Below, in pieces: positions 5,413-40,740 of a DNA stretch of 42,557 nt. This stretch comes from Phycisphaerae bacterium (GTDB lineage: Bacteria; Planctomycetota; Phycisphaerae; Sedimentisphaerales; Anaerobacaceae): assembly GCA_003553245.1 (NCBI GenBank), contig PWDX01000155.1, positions 1 through 42,557 on the forward strand. The letters are read 5' to 3'. Under the pieces are notes generated by a model. That model did no database searches. It saw only the letters and a program-made list of their open reading frames with translations, and was not told where the DNA came from. Both the position numbers and the translations under genes were made by a program. The stretch's first letter is position 1; each line of letters opens with the position of its first letter.

Positions 5413-6555
5413 TCAGAGTTCTTCTATATCTGTAAAGCGCACTATCGCAGCGCCTGTCCGGGGATTCGGAACTATGTCGCCTATCAGCCCGACTCGTTTG
5501 CCGACAAACGGCAGGATTTGTTCAGGACTTAACTGTTGCCTTGGGACAGCATAGCATATTGTATTGCCGTCGGCATCCATCACTCGGTAGTAGGTTCCAT
5601 CCGGCTGACCGGCATAAAGATAGGACTCGCGGAGATAGCCGGTTACTGCATATTCGCCGGTATCTCGGAGTTGCTCAAGGCGTCTTGTGCGCGCCTGCTC
5701 GATGTTTGCCAGTGTTTGTCTAAGATGTTCACTTTCACGGTTCATCTGTCTGCCGGCATTTATTGCTGCTTCAATTCGCTCGATGTGAGAAAGCGCGAAC
5801 TCGGCATAGCGGGCAACGGTTTGTGATTCATCTTCGAGGAGTTCTTCCAACTGCTGTTTTATTTCGGAATAATCCTGTTCATCCCGTGGTTTTTCCCTTT
5901 CCTGGCGTATTTTCTCTTCTATCTGCCTGTATTTCTGTAGAGAATCAGGTTCCGGCTCTGGTTCGGGTTCGGGCTCTGGCTCCGGTTCTACTTCCGGCTC
6001 TTCCTCGACATCCGGCTCGTCTGGTTCTTCCTCAACGACAGGCTCAGGCTCTGATATATCTATCGGCTCAAGATACATATTGCTTATCCAGTAATATGCA
6101 CCTTCCGGCGGCACTATTTTGTAATAATCACCTGTTTCCTCGCCAAGCAGTTCAACTTTATCCCCTGTGTTAAGGTGCACCTGGACACTGGTGGAGTATA
6201 TCGGCCTGATGTATTCACTCCCGGCGTAAACTCGGACGCGATCTCCGGTAACTGTTCCAACGGTCGGGTCGTCCTGGTCAACTGAGACATAAGTCCTCGC
6301 GATCCAGGAAAAGGCATCTTCCGGAGGCATAATCTGGGCCCAGTCCTCCTGGATTGAAACAACCGTTACTTCATCGCCTTCATTTAGTCGTCCACAGCGA
6401 TAATGTCTGGTTCCAGGTCCGGAGCGTATATTGACATTGTCGCCGGTAACCTCGGCTGTGTAAGGGAAGTCAGGGGTTTCAGCGTGCGAGAAAGCTGAAA
6501 CAGATGCGATCGCTATAATGACAGATAGATAAATGTAAAGGATTCGAGTGTTCAT
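5413..6555 (-). CDS. Exported SH3-repeat protein with Glu-Pro linker and coiled coil
   Basis: 380 residues. A signal peptide (about residues 1-25, ending SHA) is followed by two bacterial SH3-like segments. The first is around VTGDNVNIRSGPG, the second around VTGDRVRVYAGSEY. An acidic low-complexity tract follows, with repeated Glu-Pro pairs. Next comes a charged coiled coil (about residues 205-290) and a C-terminal domain starting near EYAVTGYLRES and ending RTGAAIVRFTDIEEL. SH3b domains commonly bind peptidoglycan or other wall ligands, so a periplasmic cell-wall role is plausible. There is no catalytic domain. The ATG at 6555 has GGGAG upstream, and a strong promoter lies at 6612-6640. Confidence 0.75.
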   Translation of the reverse strand: MNTRILYIYLSVIIAIASVSAFSHAETPDFPYTAEVTGDNVNIRSGPGTRHYRCGRLNEGDEVTVVSIQEDWAQIMPPEDAFSWIARTYVSVDQDDPTVGTVTGDRVRVYAGSEYIRPIYSTSVQVHLNTGDKVELLGEETGDYYKIVPPEGAYYWISNMYLEPIDISEPEPVVEEEPDEPDVEEEPEVEPEPEPEPEPEPEPDSLQKYRQIEEKIRQEREKPRDEQDYSEIKQQLEELLEDESQTVARYAEFALSHIERIEAAINAGRQMNRESEHLRQTLANIEQARTRRLEQLRDTGEYAVTGYLRESYLYAGQPDGTYYRVMDADGNTICYAVPRQQLSPEQILPFVGKRVGLIGDIVPNPRTGAAIVRFTDIEEL

Positions 6556-32795: not shown

Positions 32796-32829
32796 TTCTG
32801 CAATTTTTGAAAAATCAGCGCACAAAACA

Positions 32830-32860
32830 AGCCGAAACCAGTTTTTAACCGGTTCCGGCT
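32830..32860. terminator. Bidirectional terminator-like hairpin
   Basis: AGCCGAAACC (32830-32839) and GGTTCCGGCT (32851-32860) pair over 10 positions. On the minus strand all pair, with one G-U; on the plus strand there is one A-C mismatch. U-rich bases follow on both sides (GTTTCTTC on plus, TGTTTTGT on minus). It could end the receiver transcript. Confidence 0.5.
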
Positions 32861-32918
32861 GTTTCTTCACCACACATCCCACCTATTTTCATCAGCCTGC
32901 TCAGCCGAATTATTTGCT

Positions 32919-33262
32919 GCTGGGTTTGAGCTGTTGGCAACTTCAAACCCAGCGAAGAGGAGGAGAGAGAAAACTTTATAAACAACGCGACATTAGCCGC
33001 GGTCGTTTTCTGCTGGGCTTGAGTTGTTGGCAACTTCAAACCCAGCGAAGAGGAGGAGAGAGAAAACTTTATAAACAACGCGACATTGGCCGCGGTCGTT
33101 TTCTGCTGGGCTTGATGCTGTTGGCAACTTCAAACCCAGCGAAGAAGAGGAGAGAGAAATTTATAACAAACGCAAAATCTGCGGTTATTTTCTGCTGGGT
33201 TTGGTAACCCTGCTTTTGCGCATTTTACAGGTTATCAAGCCCAGCTTGGGGGAGAAAACTCC
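32919..33262. repeat. 93-bp tandem repeat array of paired hairpins (three near-identical units plus one diverged)
   Basis: Units begin at 32919, 33012 and 33105 (period exactly 93), and a diverged fourth begins at 33194. Each unit has hairpin A, with arms GCTGGGYTTGA and TCAAACCCAGC (11 bases each) around a loop containing GTTGGCAAC. Then comes a purine tract (GAAGAGGAGGAGAGAGAAAA) and a second short hairpin, CGCG/CGCG or GCA/TGC. Unit 4 keeps the outer arms but extends them to 16 pairs (GCTGGGTTTGGTAACC with GGTTATCAAGCCCAGC, two G-U on the plus strand) with a wholly different loop. It ends with GGAGAAAACTCC. Structure is thus kept while sequence changes. No match to attC, REP or CRISPR repeats was established. 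Confidence 0.75.
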
Positions 33263-33277
33263 TCATGAGCATATATT

Positions 33278-33301
33278 AACATGCCATACTAAATGCATGT
33301 T
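33278..33301. repeat. Short palindrome next to the repeat array
   Basis: AACATGC and GCATGTT are perfect inverted copies separated by 10 bases. It lies between the repeat array and the end of the degenerate receiver gene. Confidence 0.4.
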
Positions 33302-33328
33302 GCTCTCTCGTTTAGCGATTCAGCAGTG

Positions 33329-33757
33329 CTACTTTTTGGCCTGAGGCATACCAGATTCATGCCTTATTTCGTGCCATTCCCGTATTTCGGCCGGGCTTTG
33401 CAACCCCAGAACATTCGCAACTGTCTGCCTGAAATGCTCGTCGTCAGTATCTTCTGTCAGTACTGCCGAGACACCCAGGCTTCGAGCCTTGATTTCCTGT
33501 TTGGGGTCATTGGAACGCACAAACACAATAGTAGGGATATCCGGCTTTACAGCCTTTAGTTTACGCAGAAACGCCCCATCATCATGTCCGTCCAGATTCC
33601 AACTGCTGATTACGCTGTCAATTTTTTCATTTTTCAAAGAGCTGGCCGCCTTTGAGGCCGAGTCCATCGATATAACTCTTATCGGCAGTTCTCTTAAGGC
33701 CTGAACCTTTCCATTCAAACCCACCGTTAAAACAGATGCTTGTACGAGAACTATCAT
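33329..33757 (-). CDS. Degenerate receiver-domain protein (pseudo-receiver)
   Basis: 142 residues. The fold pattern of a CheY-like receiver is visible: a first strand MIVLVQASVLT, the fourth-strand segment IPTIVFVRS, and the helix EIKARSLGVSAVL. The key residues are missing, though. There is no acidic pair after strand 1. The position of the phospho-acceptor Asp reads Ser in DSVISSWNLDGHDDG, and the conserved Lys is replaced by Glu in VLTEDTDD. It cannot be phosphorylated in the normal way. It may act by binding partners or another signal, or be a decayed gene, although the frame is intact. Confidence 0.7.
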   Translation of the reverse strand: MIVLVQASVLTVGLNGKVQALRELPIRVISMDSASKAASSLKNEKIDSVISSWNLDGHDDGAFLRKLKAVKPDIPTIVFVRSNDPKQEIKARSLGVSAVLTEDTDDEHFRQTVANVLGLQSPAEIREWHEIRHESGMPQAKK

Positions 33758-34108
33758 CTTAATTACAATACCTACACATCCGGAATTTCAATCTTTTCGA
33801 CGACCTTCATGTCGTCCTGCAAGAAGTATTAGCGAACCATATGCCAAACAAGGATAATTTTCAGATATTTTTTAAATGCTTGTAAGTGCGAAGTTTACAA
33901 AGAGACGAAGATTAATTCTGTAATAGGCCACTACTTCGGCTTACCGACCATTTTCGTCGCTTAGCAGTGAAGAGAATCGCCTTCAGCGACTTACTGCATA
34001 CTGTTTTTGGCAGAAGCAGCTGTTATGGTTGCGCCTGACCAAAATGGCCGTCAGGATTAATTATCGGAGCATATGTGCGGGAAAAACATAGTAAAAATTG
34101 TTGATTTG
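33758..34108. other. 351-base gap between two minus-strand genes
   Basis: No gene was recognised. Several short inverted repeats are present: GACGAC/GTCGTC near 33799-33816, TTGTAA/TTACAA (33881-33901) and CCTGAC/GTCAGG near 34043-34064. None is followed by a U tract. The stretch should contain the promoter of the degenerate receiver gene, but I could not choose one. Confidence 0.4.
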
Positions 34109-35191
34109 CTACGGTTTTGAACTGTTCCTGCGAATCTCATCAGTGGAGATATCAAGCTTTTCCAGCATTCGATTGAGCCTGCGGCGTTCAACGCCGAGTA
34201 TTTTAGCTGCTGCCATTTTACGACCTTTTGTGTACTCAAGTGTCTGGGTAATAACACGCCGCTTTACCTCATCCAGAGTAGGCAGAGAGTGGGTTGAAGT
34301 AGAAGGAGTATTTGAAACGATAATTTCAAACGGCAGCACCGAGGTCGCAATTTCCAACCCCGTCGTCAGCACATAAGCCCTCTCAATTGCATTTGAAAGT
34401 TCGCGGACATTGCCGGGCCAATCATAATTAAGTATAAGCTTCTTGGCATCGGTGCTGAGGGTTTTTGGCTGTTCATCGTAGAATAAAGCTTGGTTAGCAA
34501 GGAAATGCTCTGCCAGCAGGGGGATGTCTTCTTTTCGTTTGCGGAGGGGCGGCACCTCAAGCGTCACAACATTTAACCGATAATAGAGGTCGGCACGGAA
34601 TTGACCGTCATCAACCATTTTGCGAAGGTCTCTGTTGGTTGCGCAAAGAACACGCACATCTATAGGATAGCTTTTTGTTGAACCAAGCGGCGTAACTGCT
34701 TGTTGCTGAAGCACTCGCAACAGCTTTACCTGCAATTCCAATGGAATCTCGCTAATTTCATCGAGGAATATTGTACCTCTGTCTGCGGCACGGAAAAAAC
34801 CCAGCGTATCATCAACGGCGCCGGTAAAAGCACCTTTTACATGCCCGAAAAGCTGACTCTCAAAAAGCTGTCCGGTAAGTGTGGTACAATCGACCGGAAC
34901 AAAAATCTTGTCTCTGCGATTGGATACACCATGTATCTGTCTTGCGACCATTTCTTTACCGACCCCCGTTTCGCCGGTTATGACAACAGGGCATTTGCGG
35001 GTTGAAATAGCATCGATCATTTCCAGAATTGATTCGAAAGCCGGACTTTGGCCAATAAAACAGTTATCAGCGATGCGATCGGTTCCACCGCTGATTTGTC
35101 CCGAACCTACAGACAGAATCTCCGTGCTATCAGGCCAGATATTCTTTATTTCTCTTTCGCAATTTTGTTCCATACCATCGCGACGCCGCAT
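34109..35191 (-). CDS. Sigma54-dependent transcription activator without receiver domain
   Basis: 360 residues from the chosen start. A short N-terminal part (about 60 residues, no known sensor) is followed by the AAA+ domain. This has Walker A GETGVGKE, the sigma54-contacting loop GAFTGAVDD, Walker [10 protein letters not shown] and the sensor region [13 protein letters not shown] linker then leads to a Fis-type helix-turn-helix at the C-terminus ([19 protein letters not shown]). It should act as a hexamer that opens sigma54 promoters. With no receiver it is PspF-like, so control must come from a partner or from its amount. The ATG at 35191 follows AAGGGG. The frame is open upstream to 35317, but the promoter at 35293-35321 lies inside that part. 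Confidence 0.9.
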
Positions 35192-35292
35192 CCGTATAGA
35201 GCACCCCTTGTCTTCTCGTTTAACACCTTTTGCGGGAGAGAAATGCACTGCCTGAAAGGGATGCATTCCTCCCTCACTCTTCTCTACTATGG

Positions 35293-35321
35293 AATATATA
35301 CTATAAAGCCTTGCCAATCAA
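35293..35321 (-). promoter_or_regulatory. Promoter of the sigma54 activator gene
   Basis: On the minus strand TTGATT (35316-35321) and TATATT (35293-35298) are 17 bases apart. It fixes the translation start downstream of about 35286. Confidence 0.55.
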
Positions 35322-40700: not shown

Positions 40701-40740
40701 ACTGTTTCAGTGTGTTTCAGTATGTTTCAGTGTGTATCAC
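40701..40740. repeat. Four tandem 10-bp repeats
   Basis: Four consecutive 10-base units with the pattern (A/T)NTGTTTCAG. The first three end in TTTCAG, and the last reads TGTGTATCAC. The 10-base period puts each copy on the same face of the helix, as in arrays of protein-binding sites. Confidence 0.6.

Follow-up and report, generated by a model that had tools for sequence, protein, structure and literature searches.

A tandem array of structured RNA elements beside a pseudo-receiver gene in Sedimentisphaerales and its predicted pairing with the mRNA of a sigma-54 activator

Sequestering RNAs of the CsrB and EutX types display repeated hairpins in one RNA, and EutX titrates an RNA-binding response regulator. 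The Qrr small RNAs (sRNAs) of Vibrio are multiple, are transcribed from sigma-54 promoters under a sigma-54 activator and feedback-repress the gene of that activator, luxO (PMC8043402). Cuckoo and alpha-r14 sRNAs comprise several hairpins with repeated, redundant CU-rich anti-Shine-Dalgarno motifs in unpaired regions, and the sRNA NfeR1 forms a feedback loop by silencing the mRNA for an NtrC-type regulatory system (PMC10746234, PMC7143759). In the CcaF1-CcsR1-4 operon of Rhodobacter sphaeroides, a small protein gene is co-transcribed with tandem homologous sRNAs and a terminator stands at the end; the CcaF1 protein binds RNA and aids maturation (PMC10253847). The pan motif consists of simple stems, mostly in tandem, for which protein binding was suggested (PMC2864571).

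The array described here was found in a window, the whole stretch of 42,557 nt of DNA analysed, which belongs to Planctomycetota, Phycisphaerae, Sedimentisphaerales according to the record titles. It is like Qrr in its related multi-copy sRNAs, its sigma-54 promoter and an activator gene as target, all of them predicted here (PMC8043402). Qrr1-5 are separate genes with their own promoters, whereas the tandem copies would here share one transcript with a pseudo-receiver gene (PMC8043402). Compared with Qrr-luxO, the activator lacks a receiver domain and pairing is placed at the predicted 5' end of its mRNA. No sequence match to Qrr was obtained, the phylum is unrelated, and, with no Rfam match to the array, homology to an established sRNA family (Qrr, for example) was not seen either. 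The array also repeats CU-rich anti-Shine-Dalgarno-like tracts outside stems, as Cuckoo and alpha-r14 do. Those alphaproteobacterial RNAs carry the motif CCUCCUCCC in hairpin loops and have variable stems (PMC10746234, PMC7143759), an arrangement not found in the array, whose tract lies between hairpins, whose H1 hairpin is itself conserved in sequence and which matched no Rfam family. CcaF1-CcsR is an architectural parallel of pseudo-receiver plus array, with a DUF1127 protein and an RpoHI/RpoHII promoter in place of a pseudo-receiver and a predicted sigma-54 promoter (PMC10253847). The pan motif lies upstream of pantothenate genes and has a different stem with two bulged A residues (PMC2864571). 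Unlike the CsrB and EutX types, the array has neither an ANTAR-type dual hexaloop nor a GGA-loop series on the RNA strand; instead of ANTAR-type tandem hairpins with two six-nt loops bearing A1 and G4, H1 loops varied from 2 to over 30 nt. A literature search found no comparable regulatory RNA for this little-studied planctomycete group.

The array repeats are a previously undescribed structured bacterial RNA family. The unit is an RNA of about 105 nt on the minus strand with the consensus order pyrimidine tract (UCUCUCCUCUUCUUC), hairpin H1 (GCUGGGUUUG..CAAACCCAGC), A-rich linker (AnGAAAnCAAA), hairpin H2 (CACGGC..GCCGUG) and GAUAAnnAUAA. No family of Rfam 15 matched the array, neither in the window at gathering score nor in the loci of three relatives at E up to 1, and only tRNAs were returned; this agrees with the sequence-only reading of this DNA, which had recognised no known repeat class. 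A first alignment of 31 units from about 16 genera, in the minus-strand sense of the window, had 98.4% of cells paired and two-sided changes in seven pairs, and 0 of 500 shuffles equalled it. An alignment of 150 units, fitted to the covariance model and hence biased towards it, had 97.8% of cells paired and two-sided changes in 15 of 16 pairs. Wobble-type cells were G.U 215 times on the minus reading and 17 times on the plus reading, and fold z-scores of the three similar window units were about -5.5 to -6.2 on the minus strand and -2.2 to -2.8 on the plus strand. Because of both asymmetries, the functional strand is minus. The exception was unit 1, where minus-strand A-C mismatches in the hairpin would read G-U on the plus strand. 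Read on this strand, the purine tract reported for each unit becomes a pyrimidine tract of the RNA. Selection on an RNA or DNA structure had been proposed; for RNA it is strongly supported by covariation, by the G.U asymmetry and by occurrence in 31 of 84 genera of the order. Conservation of the 5' arm of H1 and of the linker went beyond what tract pairing needs.

Several other identities were considered and rejected. A plus-strand reading, with the purine tract as Shine-Dalgarno sequence or CsrA-type GGA array, was ruled out by the strand asymmetry; plus-strand tracts did precede an ATG in L053, L058 and L060, with frames of just 4-11 codons. A sigma-54 promoter within H1 (TGGGTTTGAAGTTGC) was unconserved and a chance match of the window units. 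A hammerhead-like reading of GAAA and GUGAUAA failed at mismatching core residues, and no defining features of an integron attC site or a CRISPR were seen.

In the window, tandem copies start at 32913, 33006 and 33099/33100 (Table 1). Three near-identical units with a period of exactly 93 bp had been described. The tandem copies stand, with spacings of 93 and 94 bp, and copies 2 and 3 share 96% and about 90% identity with the first. The three were probably homogenised recently. The diverged fourth unit with its 16-pair outer stem was confirmed and, in minus-strand order, is the first of the four; the altered second hairpin of the third copy was also as described. The limits given for the array had to be replaced by those of the four minus-strand units in the table. 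The hairpin that follows the array would terminate its transcript, and its palindrome could equally serve the plus strand. The stretch 33263-33330, before unit 1, is a conserved 5' part of the putative array transcript with GAGAGC, an H2-like hairpin and AUGCUCAUGAGGAGUUUUCUCC; L044 and L049 are similar.

Table 1. Features of the array locus in the window.
Feature	Coordinates	Strand	Details
Sigma-70-like bEBP promoter	35294..35321	-	TTGATT..TATAGT/TATATAT; just upstream of target site; consensus match only
Predicted target site	35265..35285	-	AGAGAAGAGUGAGGGAGGAAU; near bEBP mRNA 5' end; predicted to pair with tract UUUCUCUCUCCUCUUCUUC, -25.3 kcal/mol
bEBP, sigma-54 activator without receiver domain	34109..35191	-	Pfam Sigma54_activat, E 1.2e-65; HTH_8
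Sigma-54 promoter	33831..33847	-	TTGGCATATGGTTCGCT; score 14/17; 90 nt upstream of pseudo-receiver ATG
Pseudo-receiver gene	33329..33757	-	142 aa; Pfam PF00072, E 1.4e-7; first operon gene
Array unit 1	33158..33265	-	CM R1 33.7 bits, E 2.3e-4; first transcribed; leader-type GAGGAGUUUUCUCCCCCAAGCUGGG...
Array unit 1, parts	H1 33194-33245; tract 33248-33258	-	Leader-type first unit also present in relatives
Array unit 2	33063..33165	-	CM R1 82.5 bits, E 6.7e-16; among model-building sequences
Array unit 2, parts	Pyrimidine tract 33141-33159; H1 33105-33140; then H2	-	
Array unit 3	32970..33071	-	CM R1 81.8 bits, E 1.0e-15; among model-building sequences
Array unit 3, parts	Pyrimidine tract 33047-33066; H1 33012-33046; then H2	-	
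Array unit 4 (last)	32877..32978	-	CM R1 66.4 bits, E 4.5e-12
Array unit 4, parts	Pyrimidine tract 32954-32973; H1 32919-32953; degenerate H2	-	
Terminator-like hairpin after array	32823..32860	-	14 pairs; U-rich tail

The array unit was confined to one place in its own genome and was widespread in relatives of the order, which answers the recurrence search that had been suggested. The covariance model detected the element in 37 of the 89 family genomes and, across the order (Sedimentisphaerales by record names), in 47 of 161; a sample of 294 planctomycete genomes yielded no element outside the order. The search filters miss weak matches, so that counts outside the family are lower bounds, and targeted scans located weak arrays adjoining the receivers of G041, G046 and G053. 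The element occupied one or few places per genome without scatter. A search of 60 relatives located its core CAAACCCAGCGAAGAAGAGGAGAGAGA beside orthologs of the pseudo-receiver gene in many genera.

The array had been placed between two receiver genes. The genes on its two sides run towards each other, and the right-hand one, the pseudo-receiver, is the gene to which it belongs. This protein has a receiver fold (AlphaFold pLDDT 82.6). Foldseek matches included the receiver domains of DctD and NtrC1. The protein has no output domain. An alignment of 23 orthologs showed neither the phospho-acceptor Asp nor the N-terminal acidic pair; the acceptor position held S, K, N, R, H and other residues, and the combination of acidic pair and acceptor Asp that marks a phosphorylated receiver was not found in the orthologs. 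A profile built first from 23 receivers was so divergent that it could not serve in scanning the contigs. Most copies of the element sat in this pseudo-receiver operon. Same-strand elements were detected at 28 of 31 named receiver loci, mostly 3' of the gene and sometimes also or only 5', and in three other families the element was 3' of the receiver in all 11 loci examined. Receiver and element occurred together in 41 genomes, the receiver alone in 22, the element alone in six and neither in 92 (Fisher p 5e-16), so that genomes with an array nearly always possess the pseudo-receiver. In the window, the receiver without output domain lies beside a sigma-54 activator without receiver (bEBP). 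The two may represent one NtrC-type protein split in two, an idea that the Foldseek matches to DctD and NtrC1 receivers touch upon.

A sigma-54 promoter is predicted before the transcription unit of the array operon, as is known for Qrr sRNAs. The consensus YTGGCACGnnnTTCGCT lay mostly 80-120 nt upstream of the pseudo-receiver gene. At 22 of 30 other loci a score of at least 15/17 was reached within 350 bp, and four more had such a promoter further upstream; shuffled sequences almost never attained these scores. The bEBP is located upstream of the pseudo-receiver operon in the window, and a sigma-54 activator without receiver domain was next upstream in many loci. Each of the 15 family genomes searched had a clear bEBP ortholog (63-78% identity), as did 14 of the 15 genomes from other families. 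The bEBP start in the window is uncertain and was taken at MRRRDG, longer TTG/ATG starts being possible. The bEBP leaders have one layout in common: a promoter, a purine site, a hairpin that begins with the latter half of this site, a second hairpin and the ATG. Of 14 leaders scanned, 11 had the pattern TTGA[CT]-N-TAnnnT ahead of the site. The first hairpin had modest support, with two-sided changes in three of seven pairs; in most leaders the first 7 nt or so of the site were free and the remainder was in the 5' arm of this hairpin.

The tract is rich in CUCCUC order, and its accessibility together with this composition suggested anti-Shine-Dalgarno pairing. Of nine arrays folded, five had tracts more accessible than their remaining RNA and four (L148, L163, L170 and L173) had tracts of at most average accessibility. 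Among 119 sampled genes of the own genome, the bEBP leader ranked first for pairing with the tract, at about -25 to -27 kcal/mol, and in relatives with an adjacent activator it was within the top 0-6% of random windows. Over the loci, bEBP leaders reached -21.3 kcal/mol and other genes -10.7 (p 6e-6); combined p values were 9e-7 against shuffles of tract order and 1e-12 against leader shuffles. Paralogous activators of the same genomes paired poorly (median -10.7 vs -22.5, p 0.002). Complementarity between the tract and the predicted start of the bEBP mRNA held in most of 23 family genomes and extended to two further families. Among these 23 genomes, G086, G022 and G008 had no good pairing where it was expected and G088 had a weak one, and several bEBP leaders of other families had no good pairing. 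In 15 further genomes, where non-adjacent bEBP orthologs were located by protein search, the site was often present, e.g. AGAAGAAGUAGGAGAGAU in G068 and AAAGAAGAGGAGAGC in G014.

The sites tracked lineage-specific tracts, as in G076 (UCUCUCUCCCUUUCUUC with GAAGAAAAGGGAGAGAG) and family f7 (UUUUCCUCCUCC with GGAGGCGUGAGGAAAA). Where the tracts had changed in families f7 and f2 (CUUUUCCUCCUCC; UUCUUCUCCUCC), the sites had changed too (GGAGGCGUGAGGAAAAC; GGAGGAACGAGAAGAC); these between-family changes are few events, yet specific. Exchange of own for foreign tracts was non-significant for 14 loci alone (p 0.13) and became significant once complete tract sets and non-adjacent orthologs were entered, with p 0.003 across 18 family genera and none of 50,000 reshufflings as good across 24 genera in three families (p 2e-5); these tests count genera as independent, which overstates significance, and part of the signal lies between families. 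The six f2 and f7 genera alone gave a weak result (60/720). That own pairings beat all 50,000 reshufflings argues that array tract and bEBP leader coevolve, judging from the sequences compared. The array thus appears to have the conserved seed, complementary to a target mRNA and coevolving with it, that is expected of a base-pairing sRNA, and the complementary leader is that of the neighbouring sigma-54 activator.

The repeats are probably best explained as tandem sRNAs, driven by sigma-54, which base-pair with the mRNA of the activator. The array would be a set of polycistronic tandem sRNAs forming the 3' part of the pseudo-receiver transcript, made from the sigma-54 promoter on the minus strand and presumably processed into units. 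Each unit would display a mostly single-stranded, anti-Shine-Dalgarno-like tract between hairpins, and the tract would pair with the purines at the 5' terminus of the bEBP mRNA. Pairing via a toehold of about 7 nt would open the leader hairpin and alter activator expression, creating a feedback loop if this bEBP drives this sigma-54 promoter, as we suppose. The feedback may well be negative (repression), for which Qrr-luxO and NfeR1-ntrBC are precedents, and the pseudo-receiver or another protein could bind the conserved hairpins. Pure tract pairing leaves the invariant 5' arm of H1 and the linker unexplained, and dispersed sense copies beside PEP-CTERM start codons would not be expected of a purely trans-acting sRNA. 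If true, this would add an independent example of feedback on an activator by multi-copy sRNAs under sigma-54, comparable to Vibrio quorum sensing and, unlike there, built as one tandem transcript with a pseudo-receiver, and it would give a role to one of many non-phosphorylatable receivers. The family is order-wide, and its predicted target, backed by coevolution between two RNAs, makes it directly testable.

The main rival, compatible with base pairing, is a protein-binding sponge of the CsrB/EutX kind, in which the arrays would draw an RNA-binding protein, perhaps the pseudo-receiver, away from the single elements in PEP-CTERM and other leaders. It is consistent with the same-sense single elements that adjoin PEP-CTERM start codons elsewhere in the genomes, the conservation of the H1 5' arm and linker, the recurrence of the f2 H1 loop motif CGAACAGUGAU in the bEBP leader hairpin and the near-constant presence of the pseudo-receiver; the window genome, however, has ten PEP-CTERM matches above the family cut-off but no dispersed element, and titration by itself gives no reason to expect that the tract would be complementary to the activator leader and coevolve with it. 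We consider it possible, though clearly the less probable account. Somewhat more doubtful, and offered tentatively, is a new module that joins both ideas: a phosphorylation-dead receiver and a tandem sRNA array would be made together from a sigma-54 operon, the receiver would bind RNA and guide the array to the activator mRNA (in f2 the two RNAs have a loop in common), copy number would set feedback strength and single elements would extend control to surface PEP-CTERM proteins.

A cis-acting leader or tandem riboswitch controlling downstream PEP-CTERM genes is unlikely. At roughly half of the receiver loci, PEP-CTERM genes (some of them identified by Pfam) lie behind the array on its strand, and the last element can directly adjoin a Shine-Dalgarno sequence. 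A leader or riboswitch would always stand upstream of its regulated gene, whereas the array is kept with a convergent next gene in the window and at eight other loci (L145, L156, L157, L161, L163, L165, L166 and L173). In several lineages, the window included, it ends the operon and is therefore not only a leader. Up to seven tandem copies would also be unusual for a riboswitch, and the unit showed neither a terminator nor an obvious sequestering switch. A DNA-level repeat, i.e. a REP/MITE-like mobile palindrome, a recombination site or a protein-binding DNA array, would agree with palindromic, tandem, intergenic sequences in several copies per genome; it is very improbable in view of the 215 to 17 strand asymmetry, the orientation fixed relative to one gene across families, the few genomic locations and the RNA-RNA coevolution. 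Plain recent tandem duplication without function, named earlier as the refuting case, would account for the 90-96% identity of three window copies and can be practically dismissed, as structured units are conserved in the same place in 31 of 84 genera.

Single elements were also found apart from arrays. Same-sense elements lay directly upstream of PEP-CTERM genes in L062 (2193-3900), L094 (2496-7825) and L104 (2541-2650), some abutting the Shine-Dalgarno sequence. One to three elements preceded a DUF438/hemerythrin gene in L098 (718-952), L099 (2454-2550) and L123 (6914-7282), and further single elements were near two-component genes. Sigma-54 promoters preceded the elements at the DUF438/hemerythrin genes, where they were strong, and in L102, and were absent before those at PEP-CTERM genes. 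Going by the copies in PEP-CTERM leaders, the element may also work in cis or use a protein in common with the array. In the f2 bEBP leaders L246, L247, L255 and L260, the hairpin carries the loop motif named above or a close variant, as do H1 loops of f2, f6 and f7 arrays, as if the same protein bound both RNAs.

As general targets, PEP-CTERM mRNAs received no clear support. Their start regions in the own genome paired better with the tract than other genes (p 0.002), and a generic 16S anti-Shine-Dalgarno sequence separated them too (p 0.01); pooled relatives gave p 0.03 in one test and p 0.8 in another. The ribosome-binding region of a PEP-CTERM gene in L192 (G000:C200), GAAGAAGAAGGAGAAAGAAA-ATG, reached -22.3 kcal/mol with the tract, second best of the 119 genes, and this gene is a possible further target of the array.

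Two other repeats were observed in the window. At 40703-40739, the 10-bp repeat TGTTTCAGTG occurs in 3.7 copies. At 5948-6001, 18/24-bp repeats lie within the gene 5413-6555 on the minus strand and encode a Pro-Glu repeat in a secreted-looking protein.
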